Source of the DNA: Flavobacterium cerinum
GTDB taxonomy: Bacteria; Bacteroidota; Bacteroidia; Flavobacteriales; Flavobacteriaceae
Reading direction: 5' to 3'
NCBI RefSeq assembly: GCF_024496085.1
Contig: NZ_CP101751.1
Span: 434,001 to 498,000 of the forward strand
Length of the DNA: 64,000 nucleotides
Shown here in pieces: positions 7,492 to 46,875 of this stretch. Each line of letters starts with the position of its first letter. Within the stretch, counting starts at the first letter, position 1. Below the pieces are notes generated by a model, which had not been told where the DNA came from, did not search any database, and saw only the letters and a list, made by a program, of their open reading frames with translations. A program made the translations under genes and the position numbers.

Positions 7492-7517
7492 TTTTCAATT
7501 CATCTTACTTTTTTAGA

Positions 7518-7542
7518 CCTCGGGCAAAAATTTTGTCCGGGG
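7518..7542 (+). terminator. Intercistronic hairpin, possible attenuator
   Basis: CCTCGGGCAAAA and TTTTGTCCGGGG can pair along their length with two G-T wobbles around a minimal loop. A short pyrimidine stretch follows but no long T-run, so it looks like a leaky terminator or an mRNA-stabilising stem between the lipoprotein and ankyrin genes. Confidence 0.45.
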
Positions 7543-7575
7543 CTTCTATACAAACAACCAAACCAACAAAAAAAT

Positions 7576-8793: not shown

Positions 8794-8800
8794 TTTGATC

Positions 8801-9328
8801 ATGGAAAATATTATTTATAAAATTGACCCTAACGCAAACCGAAACACTGCACTACAGCAAGCATCAAACCATATAAAAGCAACACTTCAATCTAAATTCG
8901 GTTCCTCTTACGTGATTTCTGCTGATGCTTTTATTGATGCAGACAAAAACTGGTCACATGAAATACAAGTCCGTCAAGGCAACAAAATCGGAGCTGCCGT
9001 TGGTTTAAAATGGGAAAAATCCAATCCGAATGTCGTCCTGCTTGACGCTAGCGAATCTTCCAAAATAGGTAACATAATCACCATTTCCGTTCTCCTTTTA
9101 TTTTTGGTAATCGGTGGTTATATGGGGTACAACAAAATCGAACCATTCGCCTTTTTACCGGGATACAGAATCGCTGCCGGTTTGGGTGGTCTGTTTGCAC
9201 TTATCCCCGGGATTATTCTTGTTTTTATTTTGAAATCAATACTACTGAAAGGCGAAAAAGAGCAAAATGCACAACTTGTTAACGAAGTCAGACAAGTGAT
9301 TCAAAATATATCTGCTAACAATATATAA
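8801..9328 (+). CDS. Two-span membrane protein of the operon
   Basis: The 175-residue protein begins MENIIYKIDPNANRN. I use ATG 8801 rather than the in-frame TTG two codons upstream. Residues ~1-80 form a soluble domain, followed by two membrane helices at ~86-106 and ~118-147, and a short charged tail. No family is recognised. It lies 7 bases after the ankyrin gene and 7 bases before the next one. Confidence 0.6.
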   Translation: MENIIYKIDPNANRNTALQQASNHIKATLQSKFGSSYVISADAFIDADKNWSHEIQVRQGNKIGAAVGLKWEKSNPNVVLLDASESSKIGNIITISVLLLFLVIGGYMGYNKIEPFAFLPGYRIAAGLGGLFALIPGIILVFILKSILLKGEKEQNAQLVNEVRQVIQNISANNI

Positions 9329-9335
9329 TAACGTA

Positions 9336-9950
9336 ATGGCGAAATCAAAACCTATCGGACTTAAGAAGGTTGCGAAACCGGAAGATATGAGTAAAGTAAT
9401 CATTTCTTTTCCAAGACCTGCAGACGTTCTTGCCGAACCCAAACATTTCGAACAGAAAATCCTGTTGCCGCAGTATAGTATTCCGGGACAAATTATAAAA
9501 CCGGAATTCGCTGATGTTGTGTTCCATTTTATCGTGACACCGGTATTTCTGGATTATGCTGATTTCAGACTTACTGCTGATAACAAATACGAAATCGTAT
9601 CCTACAGTGAAACCCCTATTTCGAATTTCGATGAAAAGTTTCTCAAATGGTGTGCCGGTGATATGGAGGACAATTTTTACGGATACGAAGACAAACCAAC
9701 CTATTTTGAAGTTGACAAATCGGTAAAAAGCGAAAGCATTTATAAAGGTGGAGAACCTATTTGGGATCAAACCACCTACGAAAAAGACAATGTGCGCAAA
9801 ACAGATTATTCACTCGATATCTTTAAAGATGAAAACGGTGAGCTTATGGAATTCATCGCTGCTCTTTATGACAGCAACATTTATGGTTCGTATAATCTGT
9901 TCTATTCACCTAAAACGCGTTTAATACGTCAGTTTCATCAATCGACCTAA
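9336..9950 (+). CDS. Hypothetical soluble protein of the operon
   Basis: The 204-residue protein has a basic N-terminus (MAKSKPIGLKKV), a beta-rich middle and no signal peptide. Phrases such as FDEKFLKWCAGDMEDNFYGY and NIYGSYNLFYSPKTRLIRQF match nothing I know. The stop is 2 bases before the next start, so translation of the two is probably coupled. Confidence 0.6.
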   Translation: MAKSKPIGLKKVAKPEDMSKVIISFPRPADVLAEPKHFEQKILLPQYSIPGQIIKPEFADVVFHFIVTPVFLDYADFRLTADNKYEIVSYSETPISNFDEKFLKWCAGDMEDNFYGYEDKPTYFEVDKSVKSESIYKGGEPIWDQTTYEKDNVRKTDYSLDIFKDENGELMEFIAALYDSNIYGSYNLFYSPKTRLIRQFHQST

Positions 9951-9952
9951 AA

Positions 9953-32570: not shown

Positions 32571-32875
32571 GCCTGTATTCGTTATACATTACATTATTTC
32601 AGTTTTTTAACTCGCTATTCAGGGACAAACAACCTTTTTCCTCCGAAATCAGCAGTTCGTTTTCATTGAGAGATATTATCCGCTTAAATAAAGATTCAGT
32701 GACTAAATTTTACCATTGCGATATTCCAAGCCTGTAATTATTGTTTATTTAGCAAATTCATCAGGCATATTCAAGCCGAAATTCGGAAATTGACACAAAA
32801 CGAGTGAATTTTGCACAAAAAAGATTTCCATCTAAAATGTAATAATTACCTTTGCTGCGGATTTAAACTGTTTTA
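32571..32875. other. Spacer before the copper island
   Basis: About 305 bases with no supportable gene. Its 3' end contains TACCTTTG at 32847-32854, a consensus -7 box for the first copper-island gene. Confidence 0.5.
32847..32854 (+). promoter_or_regulatory. -7 box of the first copper-island gene
   Basis: TACCTTTG is a perfect TAnnTTTG match, placing transcription start close to 32861, about 15 bases before the GTG start. No clean -33 TTG is seen. Confidence 0.6.
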
Positions 32876-33244
32876 GTGAGAAAGTTTATAGTCATATTAG
32901 CACTCTTTATGCTTCTTAAGCCTGTAATTCCGGTTTTGGAGTATATTGTATTTTATGATTATATCAAAAACGAACTTTGTGAAAACAAAGACAAACCGAA
33001 ACTTAAATGTAACGGAAAATGCCATTTAGCGAAAGAGATGGCTAAAGCATCCGATACTCCTGAAAAAGGAAACGAAAAAAAGCATATTTCAATAGAAACA
33101 AGTATTGTTTTCTATAAAGAAATCGAAGAGGATTTCGGTTTTAGTCCCCTTTTCTACAAATACAAATCAAAAATATCTTCAAATTATGATCTGTCCTATT
33201 CTTATTTAGAGACAGATTCTCTATTTCGACCTCCGGTAGTTTAA
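32876..33244 (+). CDS. Small membrane protein with C-x9-C-x3-C-H motif (copy 1)
   Basis: The 122-residue protein starts at GTG and has one N-terminal membrane helix (VILALFMLLKPVIPVLEYIV). It then shows the Cys pattern C35-x9-C45-NGK-C49-H50 followed by LAKEMAKASD, a plausible Cu(I)-binding site, a charged linker and a C-terminus ending SLFRPPVV. A close paralogue lies at 44559 and a more distant one at 39116. Position before an OprC-like receptor suggests a copper-related accessory role. The family has no known function that I can name. Confidence 0.7.
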   Translation: MRKFIVILALFMLLKPVIPVLEYIVFYDYIKNELCENKDKPKLKCNGKCHLAKEMAKASDTPEKGNEKKHISIETSIVFYKEIEEDFGFSPLFYKYKSKISSNYDLSYSYLETDSLFRPPVV

Positions 33245-33440
33245 TTTTTTAATAGGATTATTGCACCAGGTATTGTTTTTCTACAATATCAGAACGGATA
33301 TGGCCTGTATTCAGATATGTGCACTATTCTCTATTTTATCACCGGTAGCTTTACAACTTAATAGCGCTTTTTTTAAAACTGTTATTTCATGTAAACTGCC
33401 AGTCGATACCACATAGTTTTTAATTAAACATTTACCTGAA

Positions 33441-34367
33441 ATGAAATTTTTTAATTTTTTTGTAATTGCGACATTGTTCGCAGTTATAACTTCATGTACT
33501 CTGGACAAAACGGATTTTGAAGCCGAAACCAACAGGGATGTTACCGAATATTTTGAATTTAAAGAAGTTACTTCTTTCAACAGCGGTAATTACAAGATAA
33601 GTGTTGCGGCTTTAAACGGGACTTTTTATAAAGGATATAATGAAATTCGCTTAACCATAATAAATACTCAAAACAACCAGACTCTGAATAGCTCAGATGT
33701 CACTTGCTTACCTATACTGACCAATTCAGACGGTAATAAAACTTCGTGTCCACACCGATATAATTTGGTCTATAACACAGAGGGGAATTATTATTCGGGA
33801 TATGCCGTATTTACAAGTATAAGTAATCCAATGGAAAACTGGGACCTTTATATTGGTTTCACCGATAATAATCAGTTACATTCCGCTAATGGCCTTATCT
33901 CCGTTCAGAATCAACCAAATATGAATCTGAATATGACATCCTTTACGGGAAATGACGGCGAAAAGTATTTTATTGCATTGGTAGCTCCTCAGAAACCCAG
34001 AGTAGCCGAAAACGAATTGGTAGCAGGAATTTACAAATACAATCAGCCCACAGAACCTGCGGGAACATTTCCTGATCCGTCACAGTTTTCATATTCCGAA
34101 GTGCAAAATTATACTTTGAAACTGGATCCGAGAATGCCGGAACCCTCAATGGGTAATCATTCCTCGCCTAACAATGTTGATTTAACTCAGAAAACAGACG
34201 GGTTGTATTATGGAGTAGTTAATTACACCATGACCGGAAACTGGACACTGAATTTTATTATGCAGAATCAAAACGGACAAGTCATAAAAGGAACAGAAGT
34301 TCCGACGGATTTCACACCGGGAATCGAAGGAGTAAAAAGCGAACTTTATATTGACATTTTATTCTGA
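33441..34367 (+). CDS. YtkA/FixH-like two-domain lipoprotein
   Basis: The 308-residue lipoprotein (lipobox TSC, Cys-19) appears to have two similar beta-sandwich domains at ~35-150 and ~185-300. The second has RMPEPSMGNHSSPNN followed by GLYYGVVNYTMTGNWTLNF, the Met/His pattern of YtkA-like copper-binding domains. The first keeps a SCPH in the matching place. It ends just before the TonB receptor and is probably its surface or periplasmic partner in copper uptake. The copper role is inferred. Confidence 0.7.
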   Translation: MKFFNFFVIATLFAVITSCTLDKTDFEAETNRDVTEYFEFKEVTSFNSGNYKISVAALNGTFYKGYNEIRLTIINTQNNQTLNSSDVTCLPILTNSDGNKTSCPHRYNLVYNTEGNYYSGYAVFTSISNPMENWDLYIGFTDNNQLHSANGLISVQNQPNMNLNMTSFTGNDGEKYFIALVAPQKPRVAENELVAGIYKYNQPTEPAGTFPDPSQFSYSEVQNYTLKLDPRMPEPSMGNHSSPNNVDLTQKTDGLYYGVVNYTMTGNWTLNFIMQNQNGQVIKGTEVPTDFTPGIEGVKSELYIDILF

Positions 34368-34371
34368 TACT

Positions 34372-36366
34372 ATGAGATATATCACAATAGTATTGCTTTT
34401 TTGGGGAATGTTTCTCAATGCTCAGAATAACGGAGCAAAAAAAGACAGCATTAAAGAAAAAGAAATCAAGTTAAAAGAAGTCGAAATTATTGTAGCTACT
34501 AAGAAGAAAATAGAAACCGAAATGAAAATGGCAGTTTCGGTAGATCAGTTTCTGGCTTCTTCCGATCAGATCAGTTTTATTAAACGTGGCGCATATGCAT
34601 GGGAACCATTGTTAAACAATATGAGTACAGAACGTTCTGTCATCACTATTGACGGAATGCACGTTTTCGGAGCTTGTACAGACAAAATGGATCCGATTAC
34701 ATCTTATGTGGAGAGCAATAATCTATCGACAATCGATATAAAATCAGGTCAGGAAGGCGGCATGCACGGTTCAACTGTAGCGGGAAGCATCGATTTGAAA
34801 AGAAAAAACACAGCATTTAGCGAAAAGCAAGAATGGAAAGGTGCTTATCAATCGGGTTTTGAATTTAACAATAAGCAGTTTTTCAACCTTGGAAATGTAT
34901 CTTTTGCGAGTAATAAATTCGTAGCAGACGGAAGTATTTCCTATCGAAAAGCCGAAAATTATTTTGACGGTAATAACAATGAAGTGAAACATTCGCAATT
35001 CAAAAAATTCAACAGTTCTTTAGGATTGGCTTACAAAACGAGTACTTTGTCTTCTCTACGAGCTGATGCTATTTTTGATATGGCGAAAGATGTAGGCTAT
35101 CCTGCACTTCCGATGGATTTATGGCTTTCAAGAGCATTAATCACTTCGGTTGCCTACAAGCAATTGTTTAAAGAAGGATTAGTAAGAGTCTGGGATTCGA
35201 AAATCTATTTTAATGCCATAGAGCATTATATGGACGACACCACCCGACCTGAAAACCTGGTGCATATGGATATGCCGGGCTGGAGTACAACGTATGGATT
35301 GGTTTCTAAAATTAATCTAAAAAAAGAAAACTACTCTTCAGAAGTTCAGCTGAATGCATATAATAATGTTTCCATTGCCGAAATGCGAATGTATCCGCAG
35401 GATCGAAGCAAACAGACCATGTTTGCCTACAGCTGGCCCTGGGTTACAACTCGTTATGCTGGCCTTTCCATAAACAATTCATTGGAAATTACTGAAAAAA
35501 GTCAGATCAATTTCGGTGGTTCTTTAGGCATGAATTATAACCATTCCAAATATGTGGATTTTAATTGGATTTTTCATCCCGGAGCGCCACAGGAAAAAAC
35601 CCGTTTTTTACCCAGTCTGTATGCCGGTTATACGATAGATGTCAAAAAGTTTAATTTTTCTGCCGGAGGCGGTTATGGCCATCGTGCGCCATCTGTTTCA
35701 GAAGGTTACGGCTATTATATCTATAACAGTTTCGATCGTTACGATTACATAGGAAACCCGGATTTAAAAAATGAAATTTCGTATGAGATTAACGTTGCTG
35801 CCGGTTTCTCTGATGAAAAGTTTAGCCTTAAAGCCAAAGCAAACTATTTTTATATTCAGAATTACATCATCGGAAGAATTTTAAGCATGGGAAGTCCTAT
35901 GAACTATCAATCAGTTGGAGTAAAAGGATACACTTCGCTTGACTATGCTACTTTGTTTAATTTTTCACTTAACGCTCAATACGACATACTGGAACATCTG
36001 CATTGGAAAGGAACCCTGACCTACGCCCGCGGGAAAGATAATAAAGACGGAAACCTTCCTTTTATACGCCCGTTGAGTTATCAGACTTCATTACAGTATC
36101 ACTATAAAGATTTCGGTTTTCAGACCGCTTTAAACGGTGATTTCGAACAAATTAATTACAGTCCTGAATATGGAGAAGACAAAACACCCGCTTACAGGAT
36201 TTGGAACTTGTCTGCTGATTATACTTTTTATATCAACAATTTCAAAACTGTATTTCAGATCGGTGCCGAGAATATCTTAAATGAATATTACAGTACTTAT
36301 GCCGACTGGGGAAATATCCCAAGAATGGGACGCAATATTTTTACCTCTTTAAAAATCAATTTTTAA
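34372..36366 (+). CDS. OprC/NosA-like TonB-dependent copper receptor
   Basis: The 664-residue protein has a signal peptide (cleavage after LNAQ, residue ~18), a plug domain without the usual carboxypeptidase-like leader, and an outer-membrane barrel ending in an aromatic strand (FTSLKINF). The plug carries FGACTDKMDPIT, i.e. C102-x3-M106, the copper-ligand motif of OprC/NosA receptors. I start at ATG 34372. An in-frame TTG at 34351 overlaps the previous gene. It is the uptake gate of the island. Confidence 0.88.
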   Translation: MRYITIVLLFWGMFLNAQNNGAKKDSIKEKEIKLKEVEIIVATKKKIETEMKMAVSVDQFLASSDQISFIKRGAYAWEPLLNNMSTERSVITIDGMHVFGACTDKMDPITSYVESNNLSTIDIKSGQEGGMHGSTVAGSIDLKRKNTAFSEKQEWKGAYQSGFEFNNKQFFNLGNVSFASNKFVADGSISYRKAENYFDGNNNEVKHSQFKKFNSSLGLAYKTSTLSSLRADAIFDMAKDVGYPALPMDLWLSRALITSVAYKQLFKEGLVRVWDSKIYFNAIEHYMDDTTRPENLVHMDMPGWSTTYGLVSKINLKKENYSSEVQLNAYNNVSIAEMRMYPQDRSKQTMFAYSWPWVTTRYAGLSINNSLEITEKSQINFGGSLGMNYNHSKYVDFNWIFHPGAPQEKTRFLPSLYAGYTIDVKKFNFSAGGGYGHRAPSVSEGYGYYIYNSFDRYDYIGNPDLKNEISYEINVAAGFSDEKFSLKAKANYFYIQNYIIGRILSMGSPMNYQSVGVKGYTSLDYATLFNFSLNAQYDILEHLHWKGTLTYARGKDNKDGNLPFIRPLSYQTSLQYHYKDFGFQTALNGDFEQINYSPEYGEDKTPAYRIWNLSADYTFYINNFKTVFQIGAENILNEYYSTYADWGNIPRMGRNIFTSLKINF

Positions 36367-36406
36367 TTCTAAAATCAATTAATAGTAACAACTAAATTTT
36401 TCAAAA

Positions 36407-37273
36407 ATGAGAAATCTTAAAAAGTACCTTTTATTATCTGCTATTTCATTAGCAATTGTATCGTGCAGTAGTGATGATGCCGCACCAGTAGCCAATAACG
36501 TAACACTATCTTTCAAAAACACCTTTGGGGATACCGAGATTGTTTTAGGAGGAGCGACATCTTCTACGGCAACTGTAAACACATCTGATGCAGGTCAGGT
36601 TCACCATTTTTCGGAACTGAAATATGTAATCAGTAACATTCGTCTGGTAAAAGCAGATGGAACTGAAGTACCATATAATATAAACGATTTGGATAAAGGC
36701 GCGACCGTTATTAACCATGCCAATCCTTCAACATTAAATTATGTAATGAGTAATATTCCTACCGGAGAGTACAAACAAATTAAATTCGGTTTGGGAGTAC
36801 GAAGTGACCTGAATACATTAAATCAGGTAAGTTTCCCTAACTTCTATGCTACTGCCGGTGCCAACGACACTCAAATGATGTGGGAATGGGGAACGGGATA
36901 TCGCTTTACCAAAATTGAAGGATTTTATGGTGCCGATAATAAAGAAATGTCTATTCACACCGGAAGCACTGTTGAAGGTTCTGAAGGGAATTATACGCAA
37001 GGTGTTGATGCCTACAGAAACATTACATTGGATCTGCCTGTAAACGCTGTTGTCGGTAATCAGTCGCCTAAAATTAAAATAAAAGCCGACTTTAATAAAC
37101 TATTAAGCGGAACTACTAATACGATTACATTATCAACCGGAACAGGAATGGGTGACAATGCTACACCTAATATTCACACAGCTGTTCAGATGGTAAAATT
37201 TGTAGATAATTTAGGCGGAAACGGAACAAACGATCTTAAAGGAATGTTCTCTGTTAGTACCGTAGAAAACTAA
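36407..37273 (+). CDS. MbnP-family copper-binding lipoprotein
   Basis: The 288-residue lipoprotein (Cys-20) belongs to the MbnP family: VTLSFKNTFGDTEIVLG start, HHFSELKYVISNIRL in the centre and the hallmark MMWEWGTGYRFTKIEGF (W159, W161). In known MbnP proteins a Trp is oxidised to kynurenine by the partner MbnH and helps form the copper site. The MbnH homologue follows 53 bases later. It should act in the periplasm or on the surface, next to the copper receptor. Confidence 0.85.
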   Translation: MRNLKKYLLLSAISLAIVSCSSDDAAPVANNVTLSFKNTFGDTEIVLGGATSSTATVNTSDAGQVHHFSELKYVISNIRLVKADGTEVPYNINDLDKGATVINHANPSTLNYVMSNIPTGEYKQIKFGLGVRSDLNTLNQVSFPNFYATAGANDTQMMWEWGTGYRFTKIEGFYGADNKEMSIHTGSTVEGSEGNYTQGVDAYRNITLDLPVNAVVGNQSPKIKIKADFNKLLSGTTNTITLSTGTGMGDNATPNIHTAVQMVKFVDNLGGNGTNDLKGMFSVSTVEN

Positions 37274-37282
37274 TTGATACAA

Positions 37283-37307
37283 AGAGCCGTCTTAAACAGG
37301 CGGCTCT
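37283..37307 (+). repeat. Hairpin between mbnP-like and mbnH-like genes
   Basis: AGAGCCG and CGGCTCT form a 7-bp stem around an 11-base loop in the short gap. No T-run follows, so it is more likely a processing or stability element that sets different levels for the two proteins. Confidence 0.4.
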
Positions 37308-37326
37308 ATTAAATACTTCATATAAG

Positions 37327-38346
37327 ATGAAAGTTTTTTTTAAAATTTTACCTCTTTTATTCTTGTCAGTGTCTTGTAGCAATGACAACTACGAACCGGT
37401 TTCATATGATAATCCCGAACTATCATTAAATATTCCCGTTGGTTTTCCGGCATTGAATAATTCGTTTTACACCAACAAGCCTACAAAATACGGAGTTGAA
37501 TTAGGAGAAAAACTGTTTAATGAAAAACGGTTTAGTGCAGACAATACTATTTCGTGCGCAAGTTGTCACAAGCAATCATCTGCCTTTGCCGACAATGCTA
37601 TACAGGCAATCGGAATTAATGGTAGAATCGGACTTCGGAATACACCACCAGTTCAAAATCTTGCTTTTATGAAATTCTACAATTGGGACGGAAGCAAGCT
37701 GAGTTTAGAAAATCAGCCCATTGTTCCCATTATTACCCATGAAGAAATGGATTCATCTATTTTAGAAGTCATTGGTAAAATTCAAAATGACACTTCATAC
37801 AAAACACTTTTTCAAAAGGCATTCGGGGATGAAAATATTACACCCGAACGAATTTACAAAAGTATTGCCCAGTATGAATACACATTGATTTCCGCCAACA
37901 GTAAATACGACAAAGTAATGCGAAATGAAGGAGCTGCTTTTACAGAAAGTGAAACACAGGGCTATCTGATTTTTCAGCAGAAGTGCTCCGGTTGCCACAG
38001 TACAGAACTCTTTACCGATCAAAGTTTCCGAAACATAGGATTTCCGGTAAACCCGAATTCTAATGAAGCCGGGAGAGCAAGAGTTACCGGAAATATGCAA
38101 GAGTACATGAGCTTTCGGGTACCGTCTTTACGTAATGTCGAATATACCGCGCCTTATGGCAGTTTTGGACAATTCGCGACACTTAAAGATGTTTTGGATT
38201 ATTTTGACAATGGCGTTTTAGATGCCGATAATTTAGATCCTGTATTTAAAAATAATGACAAAAGAATTCCGCTTACCGAACAGGAAAAAGAATATCTAAT
38301 TTCCTTTATGAAAACATTAAGTGACGGCAGTTTTACAAATCATTAA
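37327..38346 (+). CDS. MbnH-like diheme cytochrome (CCP/MauG family), lipoprotein
   Basis: The 339-residue lipoprotein (Cys-17) has two heme motifs, CASCH (C77-H81) and CSGCH (C220-H224), in the bacterial cytochrome c peroxidase/MauG fold. It contains NGRIGLRNTPPVQNLAF and a C-terminal LRNVEYTAPYGSFGQF. Paired with MbnP it most likely acts as MbnH, which oxidises a Trp of MbnP to kynurenine. A plain H2O2-reducing peroxidase is the alternative. Confidence 0.87.
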   Translation: MKVFFKILPLLFLSVSCSNDNYEPVSYDNPELSLNIPVGFPALNNSFYTNKPTKYGVELGEKLFNEKRFSADNTISCASCHKQSSAFADNAIQAIGINGRIGLRNTPPVQNLAFMKFYNWDGSKLSLENQPIVPIITHEEMDSSILEVIGKIQNDTSYKTLFQKAFGDENITPERIYKSIAQYEYTLISANSKYDKVMRNEGAAFTESETQGYLIFQQKCSGCHSTELFTDQSFRNIGFPVNPNSNEAGRARVTGNMQEYMSFRVPSLRNVEYTAPYGSFGQFATLKDVLDYFDNGVLDADNLDPVFKNNDKRIPLTEQEKEYLISFMKTLSDGSFTNH

Positions 38347-38505
38347 TATTAAATTCTGATGACTATACTTTATCTCAGACAGCATTGGTTCACTTTAAAT
38401 GTATGTTAGAAAAGACCTAATTCCGATCTCCCTGTTTTAAAGAAGCAATGCAATTTTAGCAAAAATTAAAAATTACATTTACAATATTTTGATCATCATT
38501 TTTCA

Positions 38506-39111
38506 ATGGAAAAATTAGTAGGAAGCATACTGTTAGGACTGGTATTATTGTCGTGTACGAACCGACAACAAAGATTGCCTTTTCTGGGGAATCCGATTGT
38601 AAAAGGACAAGACACCCTCTATCCGAAGATTAAGGATTTTACTTTTATTAATCAGGATAGTATAACGGTGACGAATAAAACATTTGATGGTAAAATATAT
38701 ATCACCGATTTTATTTTCTTGTCTTGCCCAACGATTTGTCCTAAAATGACCGTTGAAATGCTTGCTGTTTATCACGAATATCAAAACAATCCAAATATTG
38801 CTTTTTTATCGCATACGATAGATCCCGAACAGGATACTATAAAGCGGTTAAAAACATATTCAGAAAACCTGGGGATTACCGGTAACTGGCATTTTGTAAC
38901 CGGCAATAAGGAAAACATCTATCAGATGGCAACCGAAAGCTACTTTATGACAGCTTATCCCGATGCCAAAGAACCGGGAGGCTATGTACATAGCGGCGGG
39001 TTACTATTAATCGATCGTAACCGACATATCCGTGGTGTTTACGACGGAACCAATCCGCAGGAAACAAAACGATTAATCGCTGATATAGCCTTATTATTAA
39101 AAGAAAAATAA
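38506..39111 (+). CDS. SCO1/SenC-family copper chaperone lipoprotein
   Basis: The 201-residue lipoprotein (LLSC, Cys-17) has the SCO thioredoxin-like fold with the copper site SCPTICPK (C74, C78) and the distal His in GGYVHSGG (H162). SCO proteins deliver copper to the CuA site of cytochrome oxidase or act as thiol reductants. It lies 159 bases after the MbnH-like gene and 4 bases before the next GTG, so it likely forms a unit with the small Cys protein. Confidence 0.9.
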   Translation: MEKLVGSILLGLVLLSCTNRQQRLPFLGNPIVKGQDTLYPKIKDFTFINQDSITVTNKTFDGKIYITDFIFLSCPTICPKMTVEMLAVYHEYQNNPNIAFLSHTIDPEQDTIKRLKTYSENLGITGNWHFVTGNKENIYQMATESYFMTAYPDAKEPGGYVHSGGLLLIDRNRHIRGVYDGTNPQETKRLIADIALLLKEK

Positions 39112-39115
39112 AGCA

Positions 39116-39493
39116 GTGAAAAAGATTACAACCTTTTTTTTACTTATTTTATTTGTGTTTCAAAGTACGAGTAACTTTTGGATCATAACTTCTTTTTATA
39201 TCAATCAGGACTATATTACTGAGAACATATGTATCAACCGGTTTGATAAAATTCCGGTTTGTTATGGTAAATGTTATCTATCCAAACAGCTTAGGGAAAA
39301 TGACAAAAAAGAACAAAAGCTTCCTAATATAAAAGAAAAAGAAATTCAACTCTTTTATTACAACGATTTTGATTTTACAATCAACAAAGTAACCGATAAT
39401 GGTTATTATATACATTATCCCCGGTACAGACCGAAATTCTTTACGGAAGAATACCTTTATTCCGTATTTCACCCTCCCAAACAGAACGCCTAA
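39116..39493 (+). CDS. Small membrane protein with C-x9-C-x3-C motif (copy 2)
   Basis: The 125-residue protein starts at GTG 4 bases after the SCO stop. It has one N-terminal helix, then C39-x9-C49-YGK-C53-Y54 matching the spacing in the copies at 32876 and 44559, but with Tyr instead of His. It ends SVFHPPKQNA, again with PP near the C-terminus. Tight coupling to SCO suggests it works in copper delivery. The function is otherwise unknown. Confidence 0.7.
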   Translation: MKKITTFFLLILFVFQSTSNFWIITSFYINQDYITENICINRFDKIPVCYGKCYLSKQLRENDKKEQKLPNIKEKEIQLFYYNDFDFTINKVTDNGYYIHYPRYRPKFFTEEYLYSVFHPPKQNA

Positions 39494-39531
39494 AATACCG
39501 TTTAAAATTTTTTAATTTAAATGAAACCATT

Positions 39532-40395
39532 ATGCAAACCGGATATTTAACTGTTTGTAACATGGGTTTATTCGGCGATAATGCTGTTAACTTCTGGATG
39601 GAGGACCTGACGGGTATTCTGGAGCGGTTTCCGCTATTGGAACGTCCACACAAGCAGGATTTTTTTGCCATCTACAGTGTTGAACAGGCGGAAGGCGATA
39701 TCTGTATTGATAATCAAAAGATTAAGCTGGAACCGCAAAAGGTTATCGTAATCAGACCTCGTTGCATCAGTAATATAAACATTAATAAAGCAGCTAAAGG
39801 AAAGCTGATTTGTTTTACAGAAGACTTTTTTTCCCTGCGTTACAATAACAATATTCTGCATCACTTTTCTTTTTTAGAAAGGGAAGCATTGCCGTATATC
39901 AGGTTAAATGATACTCAAATAGCGCGCTGGGAAACATTACAACTTTTTGTTGATAGCGAATTTAAAACCAAAGGAAAGGAAACGGGCAAGGTACTCCGTT
40001 CGTATCTGAATATTTTATTATTTGAGTTGGAGCGACTCTATAATCCTTTAGGAACACCAAAAGAACATTCACTCCGACAAGAGAAGATACAACTTTTCCA
40101 AAAGTTAATCGATCAGAATTTTAAAGAAAAGAAGTTACCTTCCGACTATGCCGCAATCTTAAATGTAAGTCCGAATTACCTGAATAAAATGTGTAAGGAA
40201 GAAACGGGACTCACTGCCGGCGATCTTATCCGGAAGCAAATCGTATTGGAAGCACAGCGATTGTTGCTCTATACTACGGATACTATAAACGAAATAGCCG
40301 ATAAACTCGGATTTGAAAACGTATCTTATTTTGTGACTTTCTTTAAAAAGCAGGCTAATGTTACTCCTGAGCAATTCAGAAGAACTGAGAAATAA
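39532..40395 (+). CDS. AraC-family transcriptional regulator
   Basis: The 287-residue protein has an N-terminal cupin-like sensor part (residues ~20-140) and a C-terminal AraC double helix-turn-helix (~190-285: LPSDYAAILNVSPNYLNKMCKEETG and INEIADKLGFENVSYFVTFFKKQ). It lies inside the copper island and may control it. The ligand is unknown. Confidence 0.88.
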   Translation: MQTGYLTVCNMGLFGDNAVNFWMEDLTGILERFPLLERPHKQDFFAIYSVEQAEGDICIDNQKIKLEPQKVIVIRPRCISNININKAAKGKLICFTEDFFSLRYNNNILHHFSFLEREALPYIRLNDTQIARWETLQLFVDSEFKTKGKETGKVLRSYLNILLFELERLYNPLGTPKEHSLRQEKIQLFQKLIDQNFKEKKLPSDYAAILNVSPNYLNKMCKEETGLTAGDLIRKQIVLEAQRLLLYTTDTINEIADKLGFENVSYFVTFFKKQANVTPEQFRRTEK

Positions 40396-40413
40396 ATCGT
40401 AAAAACAAACACC

Positions 40414-40746
40414 ATGAAAATAAAACATAACAAACTTCTAACAATACTACTGAATACAATGGCATTGTTGACGCTGACAGTCTTTTTCAGTTGCCAGGAA
40501 AAAGAGGGCGGAAATACTTTAAATAGTTCTAAGCAACTGATTCAACCGGAAAATCCGCTTAATAAACTGAAATACGATAATACAATCGATTTTTTTTGTA
40601 AAATGGATATAACCCGGTATGGTGTTAGTGATACACTTCACTATAAGGGAAAATTATACGGTTTTTGTTCTAAAATGTGCAAAGATGAATTTCGGAAGAA
40701 CCCGGATTCATACCTTACCGATAAAACGGTTTTGGAGCATAAATAA
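40414..40746 (+). CDS. YHS-domain lipoprotein
   Basis: The 110-residue lipoprotein (FFSC, Cys-27) carries a YHS domain with CKM (C62-M64) and FCSKMCKDEF (C85, C89), a metal-binding pattern found in copper-handling proteins and at the ends of CopA-type ATPases. It follows the AraC gene by 18 bases. A copper-binding role outside the cytoplasm fits the surroundings. Confidence 0.8.
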   Translation: MKIKHNKLLTILLNTMALLTLTVFFSCQEKEGGNTLNSSKQLIQPENPLNKLKYDNTIDFFCKMDITRYGVSDTLHYKGKLYGFCSKMCKDEFRKNPDSYLTDKTVLEHK

Positions 40747-40756
40747 CCAAAAGTGT

Positions 40757-40781
40757 AAAAAGTAAAATAAAAGTACTTTTT
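40757..40781 (+). terminator. Weak AT-rich hairpin after YHS gene
   Basis: AAAAAGTA and TACTTTTT pair over 8 bp with the right arm ending in T residues. It is a weak terminator candidate ending the SCO-AraC-YHS group. Confidence 0.35.
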
Positions 40782-40894
40782 ATCTAATGAAAGCGTTCCG
40801 TTTATTGAAACTTCCGGCATGATTATTTTGAAAGTTTTTACTGATTTGTAGTCATCTTTGTGAAGTCAAAACAAAGCGCAAAAGCAAAGAAATA

Positions 40895-41062
40895 ATGCCA
40901 AAAATTTTTTATTTTTTTCCTTTTCTGGTTTTATCGGTACTGATTGTTGCTATATGCCATGATCAGGATCAAAAGAAAAAAATTGCAGAAAAAGAACCGG
41001 ATATAGTAAATGTTACAGGAACCGATTCTAATTCAAATACCCGTAAATTAATTAAAGCCTGA
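40895..41062 (+). CDS. Possible 55-residue single-span protein
   Basis: A short open frame begins MPKIFYFFPFLVLSVLIVAI, a convincing membrane helix or signal, followed by CHDQDQKKKIAEKEPD and a polar tail. A CATCTTTG box 34 bases upstream resembles a -7 element. No homologue is recognised, and a frame this short could occur by chance. Its position in the copper island makes a small membrane or secreted accessory protein possible. Confidence 0.4.
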   Translation: MPKIFYFFPFLVLSVLIVAICHDQDQKKKIAEKEPDIVNVTGTDSNSNTRKLIKA

Positions 41063-41441
41063 TCTTTAAAAACGTTGTTACAGTCGTGTGTAGCGACCGG
41101 AATGGAGATCAGTAACGATAACTGTAACTGCTGACAAAAAACAGTTATTTATTTTAATTACAAGAGCCATTTTCCAAAGAAGCAGTAATGTTAAAAAGTA
41201 CCCATTATTAGTAAGCTTCCTGAAAGCGGTTAGTTAAAGCCCCTGATGCGAAAGTATCGGGGTTTTTTGTACCCTATTTTTAGCGATAATAATGGAAATA
41301 CGTTATATCGCGGGTTTTAAGGTGTAAAAAACGAAAAAAAAGTCCGCTTTCATGAAAAAGAAAGGAACGTTTATCTAAATATTCCGCTTTTTTATTTTTA
41401 TGTCCGTGGCCGTATTCTTCGAAACTTTGCAAAAAAAATTT
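41063..41441. other. Non-coding region with possible structured RNA
   Basis: This gap before the oxidase genes holds an 8-bp inverted repeat, GTTACAGT (41077-41084) with ACTGTAAC (41121-41128), and a strong terminator at 41240-41268. No gene is supported. The stretch could encode a small RNA or be a long 3' untranslated region. The start of the next gene is within or just after it. Confidence 0.35.
41240..41268 (+). terminator. Rho-independent terminator
   Basis: CCCC-T-GAT and ATC-GGGG pair with one bulge around a GCGAAAGT loop, followed by six T residues. It separates the copper genes from the oxidase operon. Confidence 0.75.
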
Positions 41442-42908
41442 ATGGATTTCCCAATGTTTCATTTGGACTGGCTTAATAACCGGATGCTGATCGCCGGTAT
41501 AGCCACCCTGCATGTAATTATTAATCATAGTCTTGCTGTAGGCTTTATTCCTTTTATAACATGGTTAGAACAAAAAGGAGTAAAGAAAAGTGCTGCCCAT
41601 GAAGTAACCCAAACGGAATGGGATCAAATGGTCTATAAAATGATGAAAGTAGCATTTATCATTACCACAACTATTGGAGCGATGACCGGAGTTGGAATAT
41701 GGTTTTCGGCCTCACTAATAAGCCCGGCTTCGATAGGTAGTTTAATCCGTGTTTTTTACTGGGCATGGTTTACGGAATGGATAGTATTCGTTACAGAAGT
41801 TATTCTCATTATGATCTATTTTTTGACATGGAAGAACAGTAATAGCTCATTAAAAGCCAAGTTGCGACATATCCGCTTCGGCTGGTTTTTGAGTATCGCA
41901 TCCTGGATAACTATGGCGTTAATTGTTTCCATTCTTGGATTTATGATGGATCCGGGAAATTGGAATACCGATAAAAGCCTGATAAATGGTTTTACAAACC
42001 CGATCTATCTGCCGCAATTGTTATTCAGAAGCCCTACAGCTATGTTATTGGGAGGTATTTTCGGATTGTTGTTGGCTACTTTGTTTACCAAATCCGGATC
42101 GGAAATAAGAAAAGTAGTAGTTCAGGCAGCTTCAAAATGGATATTGCTTTGGGCCCCGATCACACTTATAGGTGCTGTCATTTACTATAAGGCGATACCG
42201 GAAGCAATGACTGAAAATATGAGTACAGCAGTTGGAACAATGGACTTTGCGCAGTATTATGATTTACTGAAATATATGATTGTAGCAGGTATCGGATTAA
42301 CAGTTATTATAGCTTTAATCGGTTTGTTCAAAACAAAAAAGATTAAGCCTTATATGGTAGTCATACCGGTTATTACTGCCTTTGCCTTTTTGGGATTCTT
42401 TGAGCGGGTAAGAGAATTTATTCGTAAACCTTATGTCATCGGGCAATATATGTATTCGAATTTATTGCTGGAAGACGATTATGTGGTCTATCAACAGGAT
42501 GGTGTTTTAAAACATGCTACTTATACTACCGTAACGGAAATCAATGATGAAAACAAGATTGAAGCGGGTAAAAATGTATTTACCATTGCTTGTAGCCGTT
42601 GCCATACGACACAGGGTGTAAATAGTGTGGTGGATGTCTTCGAAAGAATGTATGGCGTTGGTCAGCCGCTGGATATAAATTCAATGGCTACTTATATTCC
42701 CAACATGCACAACGGAAGAAACTATATGCCGCCATTTCCGGGAACACAACAAGAATCGGAAGCATTAGCCGAATATATCCGATATGTCCAGGAAACAGGA
42801 GAATCTCTGGAAGGCGCACAAACGGATGGCATTGCTGTGAATCCTTCCAATTCTGTAAAAGCTGTTTTAGAGTATAAAAAAAGTAAAAAAAAGACAACAG
42901 ATGAATAA
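41442..42908 (+). CDS. Cytochrome bd-like membrane subunit fused to cytochrome c
   Basis: I start at ATG 41442 (MDFPMFHLDWLNN). The frame extends to 41400 but the first 14 residues look unlike a protein start. The 488-residue product has about nine membrane helices with His pairs (IATLHVIINHSLAVGF), TGVGIWFSA and an aromatic helix (IRVFYWAWFTEW) resembling CydA. It then has a C-terminal cytochrome c domain with CSRCH. This layout recalls the OR-C branch of the bd oxygen reductase superfamily, where electrons come from cytochrome c. The assignment to that branch is inference. Confidence 0.7.
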   Translation: MDFPMFHLDWLNNRMLIAGIATLHVIINHSLAVGFIPFITWLEQKGVKKSAAHEVTQTEWDQMVYKMMKVAFIITTTIGAMTGVGIWFSASLISPASIGSLIRVFYWAWFTEWIVFVTEVILIMIYFLTWKNSNSSLKAKLRHIRFGWFLSIASWITMALIVSILGFMMDPGNWNTDKSLINGFTNPIYLPQLLFRSPTAMLLGGIFGLLLATLFTKSGSEIRKVVVQAASKWILLWAPITLIGAVIYYKAIPEAMTENMSTAVGTMDFAQYYDLLKYMIVAGIGLTVIIALIGLFKTKKIKPYMVVIPVITAFAFLGFFERVREFIRKPYVIGQYMYSNLLLEDDYVVYQQDGVLKHATYTTVTEINDENKIEAGKNVFTIACSRCHTTQGVNSVVDVFERMYGVGQPLDINSMATYIPNMHNGRNYMPPFPGTQQESEALAEYIRYVQETGESLEGAQTDGIAVNPSNSVKAVLEYKKSKKKTTDE

Positions 42909-44253
42909 TAGCTTATTGATAGCCCTGCAATCCGGTTCAATACCGGTACCCAAAGATATCCCATTACCCTTACCGCTACCGGAATGGTTGCTGATTATAA
43001 TATTAGTGATTTCATTTTTAGCCCATATTATTTTTGTGAACCTGATGTTGGGCGGATCACTATTGACACTTTGGTCCGAAATAAAAGGATTAAAAGACAA
43101 AGAGTACGATATTCTGGCTCTCGAAATAGCCAAAACGACTACTGTAAATAAAAGTATTGCCGTAGTATTGGGAGTTGCACCGCTTTTGAGTATTAATGTA
43201 TTATATACCGTATACTTTTATTCGGCTAATGCACTAACCGGTTTGGTATGGATTGCGGTAATACCGTTGGTAACCATAGCTTTTCTACTCACCTACCTTC
43301 ATAAATATACATGGAAAACCCTGGAAAATAACAAAGCCGTTCATATTTCAATTCTGGCGCTGGCAGTGGTAATCTTTTTATTTATTCCGTTTATCTTTCT
43401 AACCAATATCAATCTGATGTTATTCCCCGAAAAATGGGCGGTTGTAAAAGGCTTTATGGATGCTTTGCTGTTACCTAATGTCTTTCCGAGGTATTTCCAT
43501 TTTATTTTTGCTTCACTGTCGGTTACCGGATTATTTCTGTTCTGGTATATGAGTCGAAAGAACTATCCTTTTGAAACGATTTTTAGCAGACTAACCCGTT
43601 ACGATATTCAACGCAAAGGCTATTCTCTGGCTTTGGTTGCTTCGATTGCACAGTTTCTGATCGGTCCTTTAGTATTGCTTACATTGCCGTCCAAAGGTAT
43701 GGGGTGGAACCTGATTTTAGTGATTCTCACCGGAGCTGCGATGGCACTTCCGGCGATGTGGATGATGTGGAAAGCGCTTTCCGGAGCCCGGGAAAATATG
43801 AGCCGGAATTTTTATAAAATTGCCCTGCTGCTCACCGTAACCGTATTGTTTATGGGATCCGGAAGGCAGATATACCGGGCGAATTCATTAAAACAACACC
43901 AGGAACTGGTAAAAATTAAAACAGTAGCATTTCAGGAAATTAAAAAACAGGCTATCGCAAAGAGTAAAACAGCACAGACGAATGAAGCCAATGGAACACT
44001 TTCGGAAGCCGATAAAGGTAAAAAAGTATTCAATCAATACTGTGCTGCGTGTCATAAACCAACGGAAAAGCTGGTTGGACCACCGGTAACAGAAATGCAA
44101 TCCATTTATAAAGACAATGTTCCCGGATTGAAAAACTGGATTCGTAAACCCGGAAAAAAACGCCCGGATTATGCCCAAATGCCGGCATTCCCACAGATAG
44201 CTGATTCGGATTTGAATAACTTGACAACGTATCTTTTAACATTAAACAAATAA
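42901..44253 (+). CDS. Second bd-like membrane subunit with C-terminal cytochrome c
   Basis: The 450-residue protein overlaps its partner by 8 bases. It has eight or nine membrane helices, a central FPRYFHFIFASLSVTGLFLFW helix with conserved His, and a C-terminal cytochrome c domain with CAACH and KLVGPPVTEMQ (~375-450). Together with the preceding gene it looks like a two-subunit membrane oxidoreductase with a heme c on each subunit. Whether oxygen is the acceptor cannot be read from sequence. Confidence 0.7.
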   Translation: MNNSLLIALQSGSIPVPKDIPLPLPLPEWLLIIILVISFLAHIIFVNLMLGGSLLTLWSEIKGLKDKEYDILALEIAKTTTVNKSIAVVLGVAPLLSINVLYTVYFYSANALTGLVWIAVIPLVTIAFLLTYLHKYTWKTLENNKAVHISILALAVVIFLFIPFIFLTNINLMLFPEKWAVVKGFMDALLLPNVFPRYFHFIFASLSVTGLFLFWYMSRKNYPFETIFSRLTRYDIQRKGYSLALVASIAQFLIGPLVLLTLPSKGMGWNLILVILTGAAMALPAMWMMWKALSGARENMSRNFYKIALLLTVTVLFMGSGRQIYRANSLKQHQELVKIKTVAFQEIKKQAIAKSKTAQTNEANGTLSEADKGKKVFNQYCAACHKPTEKLVGPPVTEMQSIYKDNVPGLKNWIRKPGKKRPDYAQMPAFPQIADSDLNNLTTYLLTLNK

Positions 44254-44257
44254 AACT

Positions 44258-44422
44258 ATGGTAGCCGTATTTGGAATCATGATCGCCTTATTTATTGTTC
44301 TCGCGGTGATAAACCTTGTAAAGATCAATATGCTGGCATTACAGATTATTAAAGACAAAGAGCTTAATAATCAGGAAAACCCGAAAGAGAAAAAATATCA
44401 GTTTATTAAGGGACTGTATTAA
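44258..44422 (+). CDS. 54-residue single-span protein, possible small oxidase subunit
   Basis: The frame starts 4 bases after the bd-like subunit stop and encodes MVAVFGIMIALFIVLAVINL plus a charged tail ending YQFIKGLY. One membrane helix and the position right behind the oxidase subunits recall CydX/CydS-type small subunits of bd oxidases. A terminator follows directly, which supports a real gene. No sequence match to CydX is claimed. Confidence 0.6.
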   Translation: MVAVFGIMIALFIVLAVINLVKINMLALQIIKDKELNNQENPKEKKYQFIKGLY

Positions 44423-44429
44423 AAGTAAT

Positions 44430-44451
44430 ACCCGCCAGTTTTCAGGCGGGT
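44430..44451 (+). terminator. Hairpin ending the oxidase operon
   Basis: ACCCGCC and GGCGGGT form a 7-bp stem around an 8-base loop, 7 bases after the small-subunit stop, followed by a T-rich tail. Confidence 0.7.
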
Positions 44452-44546
44452 TATTCTAATTTAGAAAATCAATCCGAATATATATGTTTTCGGTTATAAG
44501 AATGCTATTCACGAAAACAAATAGGTTCTACTCTTTTGTGAAGCGT

Positions 44547-44554
44547 TACTTTTG
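44547..44554 (+). promoter_or_regulatory. -7 box directly before a GTG start
   Basis: TACTTTTG matches TAnnTTTG and ends 4 bases before the GTG at 44559. Transcription would begin at about the start codon, giving a leaderless mRNA. Confidence 0.5.
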
Positions 44555-44558
44555 TCTC

Positions 44559-44933
44559 GTGAAAAAAATACTTGTCATATTTGCTTTTTGGATGTTGCTA
44601 AAGCCGGTCTTACCAGTTTTGGAGTACGTAGTAAATTATCAGTATATCGTAACAGAACTTTGTATCAACAAAAACAAACCAGCGGTTCATTGTAACGGAA
44701 AATGTCACTTAATGCAAGAGTTGGCTAAGGCTTCTGACAGCCAGGAAAAACAATTACCGGAAAAAAAGCTCTCGCTTTTGGAAAGCAGTATTTTGTTTTA
44801 CAAAGAACTCGAATATTTTAAAATCTGTTATTGGACTCAACCGGAAAATCGGAAAAGTCACTTTAACTACGACAATTCTTTTTATACGCATCTTATTAGC
44901 TGTTCACTGCTAAAACCTCCCATTTTTATTTAA
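44559..44933 (+). CDS. Small membrane protein with C-x9-C-x3-C-H motif (copy 3)
   Basis: The 124-residue protein is a close paralogue of the one at 32876: C35, C45, C49 and H50 align exactly (CNGKCHL) and about 39 of the first 59 residues are identical by hand count. The alignment supports the GTG start at 44559 rather than an upstream ATG at 44484. It ends SLLKPPIFI. It closes the copper island and its duplication on either side suggests functional importance. The function is unknown. Confidence 0.7.
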   Translation: MKKILVIFAFWMLLKPVLPVLEYVVNYQYIVTELCINKNKPAVHCNGKCHLMQELAKASDSQEKQLPEKKLSLLESSILFYKELEYFKICYWTQPENRKSHFNYDNSFYTHLISCSLLKPPIFI

Positions 44934-45186: not shown

Positions 45187-46875
45187 ATGAAAAACAACTA
45201 TATTTTTTTACTGCTGTTTTTAAGCAGTATGGCAATGGGACAAAATACTGTCCAACCACAATGGAACACACAGGGAATAACCGTAGCCGGCGGAAACGGA
45301 GCCGGTTCGGATGCCAACCAGCTTATGATGCCCTACTCTGTTTTTGTAGATGAACAAAATAATATATATGTAGCTGATGCTCCCAATCATAGAATCCAAA
45401 AATGGTTACCCGGAGCAACAACCGGAATAACCGTAGCCGGAGGAAATGGTGCGGGAGATGGTAGTAATCAGCTAAACTATCCCACAGGAGTATGGGTTAA
45501 AAATGACGGAACAATTTATATTTTAGATAGTTTTAATGCCCGAATTCAGCAATGGTTACCAGCTGCAATTACAGGAACAACTGTAGCGGGAGATAATGGT
45601 GTTGGTAGTGCTGAAAATCAAATGAGCTATCCGGGCGGATTCTTTTTAAAAGGAAATGATTTTTACATTGCGGATTCCGGGAACAGTCGCATTTTGAAAT
45701 GGGGAATTGGTAATACTACAGGATCAGTCGTAGCCGGAGGAAGTTTTGGTGCCGGAATGAACCAATTAGGCAATCCTAATTTAAGCGGAACTGTCTATGT
45801 CGATAACGATAATGCTATTTATGTAACCGATTTCAGTAACAACAGAATCCAGAAATGGCACTCGGGAGCAACAGATGCCATAACGGTCGCCGGCGGAAAC
45901 GGTGATGGTTCCGGTAATAACCAAACGTTTACTCCTAATGGTATTTATGTGTTGAACGGTGGAATAATACTGATAGCCGAATACGGAAATAACCGGATTA
46001 GCCAATGGACAGAAAGTCAGTCGGAAGGTACGGTTATTGCCGGCGGAAACGGATCCGGTTTAGCTGCCAATCAGTTGAATTTACCAAGAGGTCTGTTTGT
46101 CGCACAGAACGGAGATCTTTATGTAACAGACTTCGGAAATAACAGAATACAAAAATTTGAAGCCATTCCACAACAGCAACCTATCTGTACGGAAAATCTT
46201 GGTGGTGGCTTAGAGCCTTCTTTTGTGGAATTAAAAATCAACGGAACCAATTTCCTGCATACTACTTATGAAGAGCCTACAATATATTATCATGAATACC
46301 CACAGTCAGGAAATACCACAACCCCATTAAATCGCGGACAGCAATATAGTTTTTACACTTTTACATCTTCAGAAGCTGTCATCGGACTTTGGATTGATTA
46401 CAATCGGAATAATATTTTTGAGGCGAATGAGTATACGCAGCTTGTAAATAATATGAATTCTCAAAACACCAAGAACTTTACGGTTAGTACTAACGCTCTA
46501 ATAGGAACTACCAAAATGAGACTTCGCTCCCGTGCCTACGGTAGTACAATTGAAGATAATGATGCCTGTACCCATTTCGGCTCCGGTGAAACCAGAGATT
46601 ATACTATTACGATAGCCGATTCCAATCTTTCTTTAGGAGAAAACGAAACCGCAAAAAAGGTTCACTTATTTCCGAATCCGACACAATCTACGCTTAATAT
46701 ACAAGCATCAAAACCGGTTTCAATTGCGATACTTAGTCTGGATGGTCGGATACAAATTCCGCGTGAACAAACAAATGTACTGAACTTACAATCACTATCT
46801 CCTGGAATTTACATGGCATTAGTGTATGATGAAGACTTAACAATTCGGGAAGTGGTTAAAATAATTAAACAATAA
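45187..46875 (+). CDS. T9SS-secreted NHL-repeat protein with GEVED domain
   Basis: The 562-residue protein has a signal peptide (to residue ~19), six NHL-type repeats at ~30-330 (each with ITVAGGNGAG-like and IYVADxxNHRIQKW-like parts), a GEVED-type domain at ~385-475 (IGLWIDYNRNNIFEANEY) and a type A T9SS sorting domain at ~492-562 (VHLFPNPTQSTLNIQ). It should be exported through the outer membrane and anchored or released at the surface. The NHL propeller probably binds a protein or glycan. Confidence 0.88.
   Translation: MKNNYIFLLLFLSSMAMGQNTVQPQWNTQGITVAGGNGAGSDANQLMMPYSVFVDEQNNIYVADAPNHRIQKWLPGATTGITVAGGNGAGDGSNQLNYPTGVWVKNDGTIYILDSFNARIQQWLPAAITGTTVAGDNGVGSAENQMSYPGGFFLKGNDFYIADSGNSRILKWGIGNTTGSVVAGGSFGAGMNQLGNPNLSGTVYVDNDNAIYVTDFSNNRIQKWHSGATDAITVAGGNGDGSGNNQTFTPNGIYVLNGGIILIAEYGNNRISQWTESQSEGTVIAGGNGSGLAANQLNLPRGLFVAQNGDLYVTDFGNNRIQKFEAIPQQQPICTENLGGGLEPSFVELKINGTNFLHTTYEEPTIYYHEYPQSGNTTTPLNRGQQYSFYTFTSSEAVIGLWIDYNRNNIFEANEYTQLVNNMNSQNTKNFTVSTNALIGTTKMRLRSRAYGSTIEDNDACTHFGSGETRDYTITIADSNLSLGENETAKKVHLFPNPTQSTLNIQASKPVSIAILSLDGRIQIPREQTNVLNLQSLSPGIYMALVYDEDLTIREVVKIIKQ

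Follow-up and report, generated by a model that had tools for sequence, protein, structure and literature searches.

OprC of Pseudomonas aeruginosa is a TonB-dependent transporter of ionic copper, and its copper binding was published in 2021 (PMC8610252). An OprC-like receptor with the same motif was proposed in 2024 to take up copper in Bizionia argentinensis, a member of the Flavobacteriaceae; the available text of that report does not mention MbnP and describes no operon like the one discussed here (PMC11213822). In this work, we describe a locus of Flavobacterium cerinum in which an OprC-like receptor is encoded together with MbnP-like and MbnH-like proteins, an SCO protein and two membrane cytochromes. 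It is contained in a stretch of 64,000 nucleotides (the window), corresponding to positions 434001-498000 of the host genome, which consists of one contig of 4.08 Mb. With a probability of roughly 65%, we consider it to be a two-module copper-supply locus, which would capture copper, import it in a TonB-driven manner and supply it to heme-copper oxidases.

Two other described systems are close to this locus. The methanotroph pairs MbnP/MbnH, MopE/SACCP and CorA/CorB consist, as in the window, of a partner protein and an adjacent di-heme enzyme of the MauG type. According to the accessible part of a study from 2013, MbnP/MbnH are conserved far beyond methanobactin producers, such pairs sometimes lie near a TonB-dependent receptor, and MopE uses kynurenine for copper (PMC3621798). 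Therefore, the occurrence of the pair without methanobactin genes, which the initial annotation had singled out, is not peculiar to this locus; no methanobactin gene is present among the genes identified in the island, a genome-wide search for such genes not having been made. The window MbnP differs from these pairs in having an acidic export-type signal of the Bacteroidota kind, and in scores under the equivalog cut-offs. In Bordetella, the CrtA operons tie TonB-dependent copper import to heme-copper oxidases, with SCO in a few of them (published in 2026; PMC12914433). CrtA belongs to a different receptor subfamily, the reported substrate of which is chelated copper; neither MbnP nor MbnH is mentioned in the portion of that paper that was searched.

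A conserved operon around the receptor

A scan of genomes with the receptor alignment recovered at least 577 relatives. The best 80 of them, with identities of 71-96%, were examined with flanks of up to 10 kb and are the 80 loci referred to throughout. They belong to Flavobacterium, Winogradskyella, Myroides, Chryseobacterium, Sphingobacterium and a Chitinophagaceae bin. Since the loci are related to each other, counts over them are to be read as conservation and not as independent events.

The order cys–YtkA–receptor–(cys)–MbnP–MbnH, in which cys stands for a small three-Cys membrane protein, is complete in 77 of the 80 loci, and in the other three (L218, L224 and L238) the first cys alone is absent, at a contig end. 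As the core order recurs to this extent, the gene set is far beyond chance; the gene-order comparison proposed in the initial annotation thus had a positive outcome. A second cys gene is present between receptor and MbnP in 32 loci. MbnP and MbnH are adjacent in all 80, every MbnH has two CxxCH motifs, and every MbnP beside a receptor has WxW, a motif found in 60 of 101 MbnP-length matches in a wider sample. The MbnP of the window is the sole PF20243 match in the host genome.

The assignment of the receptor is based on its ligands. In a comparison with the OprC structure 6fok (E=3.4e-9), C109xxxM113 and H292xM294 are in register with the copper ligands, and the two proteins are homologous over the plug and part of the barrel. 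Both motifs are found in 80/80 receptors, spaced 170-195 residues apart (180 in OprC), and a receptor-profile search of further loci retrieved them in 17 receptors out of 17, the window's included. The copper motif read by the initial annotation is thereby borne out. In contrast to OprC, the window receptor belongs to an operon of fixed order that also encodes MbnP/MbnH, a YtkA-like protein and three-Cys proteins. With plasmid-borne receptors that carry the annotation of TonB-dependent copper receptor, it shares 21-22% identity over 90% of its length; a plasmid search with the receptor gave 27 records, all below 60% identity. The YtkA-like lipoprotein gene precedes the receptor in all 80 loci. 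The family assignment of its product is weak: the match stays below the Pfam cut-off and covers only residues 221-270 of 308.

The -7 promoter-like sequence TACCTTTG upstream of cys1 fits what we take to be the Bacteroidota -7 consensus, TAnnTTTG. In 77 regions upstream of cys1, words fitting this box are among the 7-mers most enriched over Markov shuffles, an enrichment that is confounded by relatedness: ATATTTG occurs in 32 regions (9.2 expected), and a few other words in 5 to 16.

Taken together, cys1–YtkA–receptor–MbnP–MbnH (module 1) is probably a conserved operon for copper acquisition in Bacteroidota. As for OprC, free or weakly chelated copper would be the simpler substrate. The features of the locus are collected in Table 1.

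Table 1. Features of the locus in F. cerinum; positions are those of the window.
Feature	Position	Strand	Basis and remarks
-7 promoter-like TACCTTTG	32847..32854	+	Read in sequence; weak
cys1, 122 amino acids (aa), LCxNK…CNGKCHL…RPPVV, one N-terminal hydrophobic stretch	32876..33244	+	Open reading frame (ORF) and family alignment
Lipoprotein with YtkA-like domain, CTLDKTDFE after lipobox	33441..34367	+	PF13115, 24.5 bits, below cut-off 25.9
OprC-like TonB-dependent receptor, CTDKM and HYM copper ligands	34351..36366	+	Start possibly 34372
MbnP-like lipoprotein, WEW motif, CSSDDA after lipobox	36407..37273	+	PF20243, 128 bits (cut-off 27)
MbnH-like di-heme lipoprotein, MauG/CCP superfamily, two CxxCH, CSNDNYE after lipobox	37327..38346	+	PF03150, 168 bits
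SCO lipoprotein, CPTICP and VHSGG	38506..39111	+	PF02630, 88.8 bits (cut-off 22.8)
cys2, divergent member, ICINRF…CYGKCYL…HPPK	39116..39493	+	18% identity to cys1
AraC-type regulator	39532..40395	+	PF12833
YHS lipoprotein	40414..40746	+	PF04945, 46.8 bits
bdA, CydA-like N-terminal helices and C-terminal c-type domain (CSRCH)	41400..42908	+	PF13442; start 41442 by homologues
bdB, second CydA-like membrane cytochrome, C-terminal c-type domain (CAACH)	42901..44253	+	PF00034
Single-helix ORF, 54 aa, possible small subunit of bdAB; weak	44258..44423	+	No family above cut-off
cys3, third member	44484..44933	+	52% identity to cys1; start more likely 44559

A possible surface location of MbnP and MbnH

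In Bacteroidetes, the export signal of surface lipoproteins consists of acids preceded by a polar or basic residue; the consensus SDDFE was derived from SusD homologues of F. johnsoniae and is functional in Capnocytophaga, as far as the consulted text of that work goes (PMC5080379). Among proteins with a recognised lipobox in the 80 loci, at least two acids at positions +2 to +6 occur in 62 of 66 MbnP and 56 of 73 MbnH, compared with 0 of 68 YtkA-like proteins and 39 of 121 other lipobox ORFs. The latter, which serve as background, are ORFs of at least 120 aa outside the named families in the same loci. The lipobox finder is a simple ad hoc rule and the rows are related; proteins in which no lipobox was recognised within 45 residues do not enter these counts (14 of 80 MbnP and 7 of 80 MbnH), and a looser rule gave 64/68 and 57/74, respectively. 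SCO and YHS proteins with a recognised lipobox (7 of 20 and 11 of 14) have at most one acid at those positions. The MbnP signal in these loci is mostly CSxDD. That of the window, CSSDDA, has two acids in the interval and fits the pattern of a polar residue and then acids.

Because of these acidic export-type signals, MbnP, and in many relatives also MbnH, may be outward-facing, beside the receptor. MopE, a functional analogue, is surface-associated according to the part of the 2013 study referred to above (PMC3621798).

The pair also occurs in other settings. MbnP is present in 99 of 199 Flavobacteriaceae genomes of a broader sample, and 100 of 109 non-self places were examined, nine being omitted as weak or second copies. 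The commonest setting in this Flavobacteriaceae sample is the suf operon for Fe-S clusters, with sufB located within 1.2 kb after MbnH in 54 of these 100 loci. One example is L111, in which positions 8542-10367 are accompanied by SufA (8103-8429) and SufB (6638-8083), and similar arrangements are seen among L032-L131. A group made up of cys, MbnP, MbnH and a protein of about 330 aa without a Pfam family occurs in 28 loci (for example L056, 9053-12509); this last protein is also encoded in 13 of the 40 three-Cys loci discussed below. Seven loci contain neither cys, receptor nor sufB.

The frequent association with suf genes is in line with a role in copper stress. YHS, SCO, the three-Cys proteins and MbnP/MbnH would then bind and detoxify excess copper in the envelope, the receptor being of minor importance. 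Copper damages Fe-S clusters, and metal binding is common among Cys-rich proteins and domains of the YHS/TRASH type. Against this, the conserved operon has a receptor of the OprC type at its core, and none of the genes identified between 32.8 and 44.9 kb encodes an efflux ATPase, an RND pump or a multicopper oxidase. We regard this explanation as quite unlikely.

A family of three-Cys membrane proteins

The initial annotation had noticed three small membrane proteins with a Cys motif. They indeed exist, and cys1, cys2 and cys3 form one family, of which cys2 is a divergent member. The family is characterised by one N-terminal hydrophobic stretch, LCxNK…C(N/D)GKC(H/Y)L and a C-terminal PP. In an alignment of 30 sequences eight columns are invariant, three of them being Cys. 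C-x8-12-CxGxCxL is found in 200 of 213 gathered members, with PP near the end in 211. The profile of the family matched 1104 proteins, and members occur in 118 of 296 sampled Bacteroidota genomes.

No Pfam domain was found among the 120 profile matches listed, which are annotated as 'hypothetical' or 'uncharacterized protein', except for one '5-methylthioribose kinase'. The cys1 protein itself matches no Pfam family and NCBIfam only at chance level, and a PDB search with the family returned no solved relative.

Forty loci, mostly stronger matches, were examined from the matches in the 118 genomes. In 27 of them, a copper receptor of the OprC-like type, MbnP, MbnH or SCO is encoded at most four ORFs away from the three-Cys gene. 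Ten of the remaining 13 loci encode, no more than two ORFs away, a protein of 711-788 aa, which is the length expected of a TonB receptor; testing was limited to the one in L138. On the basis of the Cys spacing and the neighbouring genes, it is plausible that the three-Cys proteins function as Cu(I)-thiolate chaperones, with CxGKC and the third Cys as a candidate site.

A strong nosZ match was observed near three-Cys genes in four of the 40 loci: L136 (partial, at the end of the stretch), L138, L146 and L170. A match of only 21 bits in L134 was not counted. In L138, a PepSY protein adjoins the TonB receptor.

A second, separable module

The second module is made up of SCO–cys2–AraC–YHS–bdA–bdB–cys3. 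The SCO, AraC and YHS genes of the initial annotation are confirmed by their Pfam matches (Table 1), and the window SCO has the sequence motifs by which SCO1/SenC proteins are recognised, CxxxCP and a downstream His. In the sensor domain of the AraC-type regulator, C9, one His and the Cys of a PxC motif are common to six synteny-linked homologues besides the window's; an AraC match in L151 and an opposite-strand match in L204 were left out as unrelated to the synteny-linked regulator. Two side features were noted by eye or in the flank. The 650-base gap between YHS and bdA (40747-41399) seems to contain a terminator-like hairpin near 41240 and, at about 40895-41062, a very short ORF whose product resembles a lipoprotein. 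After cys3, a secreted protein with NHL repeats, GEVED and a type IX sorting domain is encoded at 45187-46875, with a homologue nearby in L192, L193 and L140.

The initial annotation had described one island for copper uptake and handling. For module 1 such a role stands, on the conserved order and ligands; as a single unit, the island has to be abandoned in favour of two separable modules. Among the 80 loci, only L192 (F. supellecticarium, with a receptor 96% identical) carries the whole of it, including a cys gene after bdB. In L140, from another Flavobacterium, SCO–cys–AraC–SOD–YHS–NHL–bdA–bdB lies within 20 kb of sequence that lacks the receptor operon (SOD, superoxide dismutase). SCO–cys–AraC adjoins module 1 in five loci (L192, L194, L248, L257 and L268), following it in two and preceding it in three. 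Furthermore, a YHS–SCO–SOD group precedes module 1 in five Chryseobacterium loci (L245, L246, L255, L258 and L260), and in four of these it is accompanied by another cys gene. As genes of module 2 stand before module 1 in some loci and after it in others, the two seem to have been joined more than once.

Within module 2, bdA is linked to SCO. It occurs in 18 of 249 Flavobacterium genomes, at 19 places, and at 14 of these an SCO orthologue (at least 50% identity, same strand) is found at most 8 kb upstream; conversely, 7 of 21 such SCO places have no bdA alongside. Across the phylum the distribution of bdA is patchy, with 12 of 296 genomes positive at E<=1e-30.

The membrane cytochromes bdA and bdB

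The initial annotation had not mentioned bdA, bdB or the 54-aa ORF that follows them. Mean column identity is 75% in each alignment of 14 close homologues, one for bdA and one for bdB. PF01654, the CydA family, has no match in bdA, in bdB or in the host genome, in a search in which 10 of 14 control genomes were positive. Comparisons with hhalign were made singly and not as database searches: against a profile of 16 CydA proteins, bdA has E=1.5e-4 (probability 51%) and bdB E=7e-7 (92%), compared with E values of 0.11 and 0.38 for a COX1 negative control. Furthermore, bdA aligns over its full length (E=1e-33) with a protein of L190 that is itself a weak PF01654 match (25 bits). The mutual match of bdA and bdB is confined to the c-type domain. 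A His in the first helix of both is aligned with a CydA His; a second CydA His is aligned with H200 in bdB and with Phe209 in bdA. We take these CydA residues to be the b595/d and b558 ligands. A search of solved structures with the membrane cytochromes returned only a weak CydA match (5doq, E=0.0011).

The two proteins are best regarded as putative remote relatives within the cytochrome bd superfamily, perhaps akin to the two-subunit CydAA' types, and they may act as an oxidase that does not need copper. CydAA' types of the OR-N kind are described from Nitrospinota in the text available; they resemble bdAB in having two CydA-like subunits and a putative electron input linked to cytochrome c (PMC10839748). 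The bdAB pair is distinguished from the bd superfamily types by a C-terminal c-type domain on each subunit and by the lack of a PF01654 match. OR-C types may carry such domains as well.

These cytochromes allow an extension of the copper-supply reading, in which the locus is a copper-sparing switch. Under copper starvation, AraC would induce scavenging together with copper-free substitutes: bdA–bdB for the heme-copper oxidases and, in relatives, a Mn/Fe superoxide dismutase for the Cu,Zn enzyme. This is attractive since both the Mn/Fe-SOD and the bd-like pair would be free of copper. A Mn/Fe-type SOD is encoded in module 2 of L140, L149 and L194 and in the five Chryseobacterium loci, the linkage of SCO to bdA is in line with such a switch, and the host genome combines a Cu,Zn-SOD and two COX1 genes with the lack of a PF01654 match. 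Precedents exist as well, as far as the consulted parts of the reports show: copper acquisition by chalkophores in M. tuberculosis is backed by cytochrome bd (PMC12140626), and CrtA of B. pertussis offers another (PMC12914433). On the other hand, bdA is found near the receptor operon in only one of the 80 loci, the window module has no SOD, and the oxidase role of bdAB is itself putative. Canonical CydA is encoded by 7 of the 18 Flavobacterium genomes that have bdA and by 9 of 18 chosen without it; therefore, there is no replacement pattern, and bdAB as a substitute for canonical CydA is unsupported. Neither was a promoter motif found that is common to the upstream regions of cys1, SCO and bdA; by eye, a TTCAATCC-like element seems to recur upstream in AraC-linked loci, and no enriched word is tied to SCO or bdA. 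The tests that were run lean against the copper-sparing switch or are silent, and we consider it unlikely.

Proposed mechanism and copper clients

Likely copper clients in the host are the products of two COX1 genes and of a single Cu,Zn-SOD gene. It could also be imagined that the whole set serves to metallate one copper enzyme, for example nitrous oxide (N2O) reductase, NosZ, in line with the nosZ matches near some three-Cys genes. The host genome has no match to NosZ, in a search in which three other genomes (G222, G252 and G263) exceeded the cut-off; an earlier search with PF18764 had no positive control. In addition, nosZ is found in none of the 80 receptor loci and none of the 100 MbnP loci. 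NosZ is thus ruled out as a general client, and metallation of a single enzyme is very improbable.

According to the copper-supply reading, MbnP and, less surely, MbnH would be located on the outer face of the outer membrane, as their acidic signals suggest. By analogy with the methanotroph pairs, MbnH would oxidise a Trp of MbnP to kynurenine and so create a copper site. MbnP would capture copper and hand it over to the OprC-like receptor, the CxxxM–HxM site of which would take part in TonB-energised import; here the ligands are seen and transport is predicted. On the periplasmic side, a relay might be formed by the YtkA-like lipoprotein together with the membrane proteins of the three-Cys family. 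Module 2 would couple copper to respiration, SCO loading the heme-copper oxidases and AraC sensing copper or the thiol state. In a bolder version, a surface-exposed kynurenine-MbnP, matured in place by MbnH, would feed the receptor, the three-Cys proteins would pass copper inward, and the AraC–SCO module would set the balance of respiration between the copper oxidases and a bd-like oxidase of a new type, free of copper and with covalently attached c-type domains. We regard this combination as rather improbable.

Several observations weigh against the copper-supply reading. The receptor scores 85.7 bits against TIGR01778 over residues 66-648, far under the cut-off of 472.45, and is, therefore, named OprC-like and not OprC. 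In the same way, MbnP reaches 65 of 140 bits with the NCBIfam model TIGR04052 and MbnH 200 of 363 with TIGR04039; both are homologues by Pfam, as initially annotated, but not at the equivalog level, hence the labels MbnP-like and MbnH-like. The pair is not tied to the receptor, since the receptor is present in only 9 of the 100 MbnP loci and most pairs sit elsewhere, mostly before sufB. In the MbnH of the window, the signal CSNDNYE contains a single acid in the interval +2 to +6 and departs from the export pattern, and an MbnH at the surface is left without an obvious source of electrons or peroxide. TonB receptors beside three-Cys genes in L138, L166 and L171 score as siderophore type and not as copper type, so that the tie of this family to copper is not exclusive. 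SCO is found near the receptor operon in only 10 of the 80 loci, the rarity of bdA there and the missing common promoter motif point in the same direction, and relatedness reduces the weight of all counts over these loci. The missing two-acid signal of the window MbnH and the location of some three-Cys genes beside non-copper receptors lower our confidence in this reading and in its bolder version.

Significance for copper metabolism in Bacteroidota

MbnP/MbnH without methanobactin, copper binding by OprC, an OprC-like receptor in flavobacteria, and links between receptors and oxidases are known already. Among the matches listed by literature searches of partial coverage, on MbnP/MbnH, OprC/CxxxM, Bacteroidota copper receptors, CNGKC, bd-type pairs and copper starvation, there is no description of the fixed Bacteroidota operon, of the three-Cys family or of the linkage between SCO and bdAB.

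The three-Cys family is defined here, has no Pfam match and is as yet unnamed. The linkage of SCO to bdA raises the question why a copper chaperone should be encoded next to a relative of an oxidase that does without copper. If MbnP and MbnH act at the cell surface, this would be a new location and a new purpose for the pair outside methanotrophs. Finally, the order of module 1, kept in nearly all of the loci from flavobacteria and sphingobacteria to a Chitinophagaceae bin, makes this operon a strong and testable candidate for a main route of copper import in Bacteroidota.

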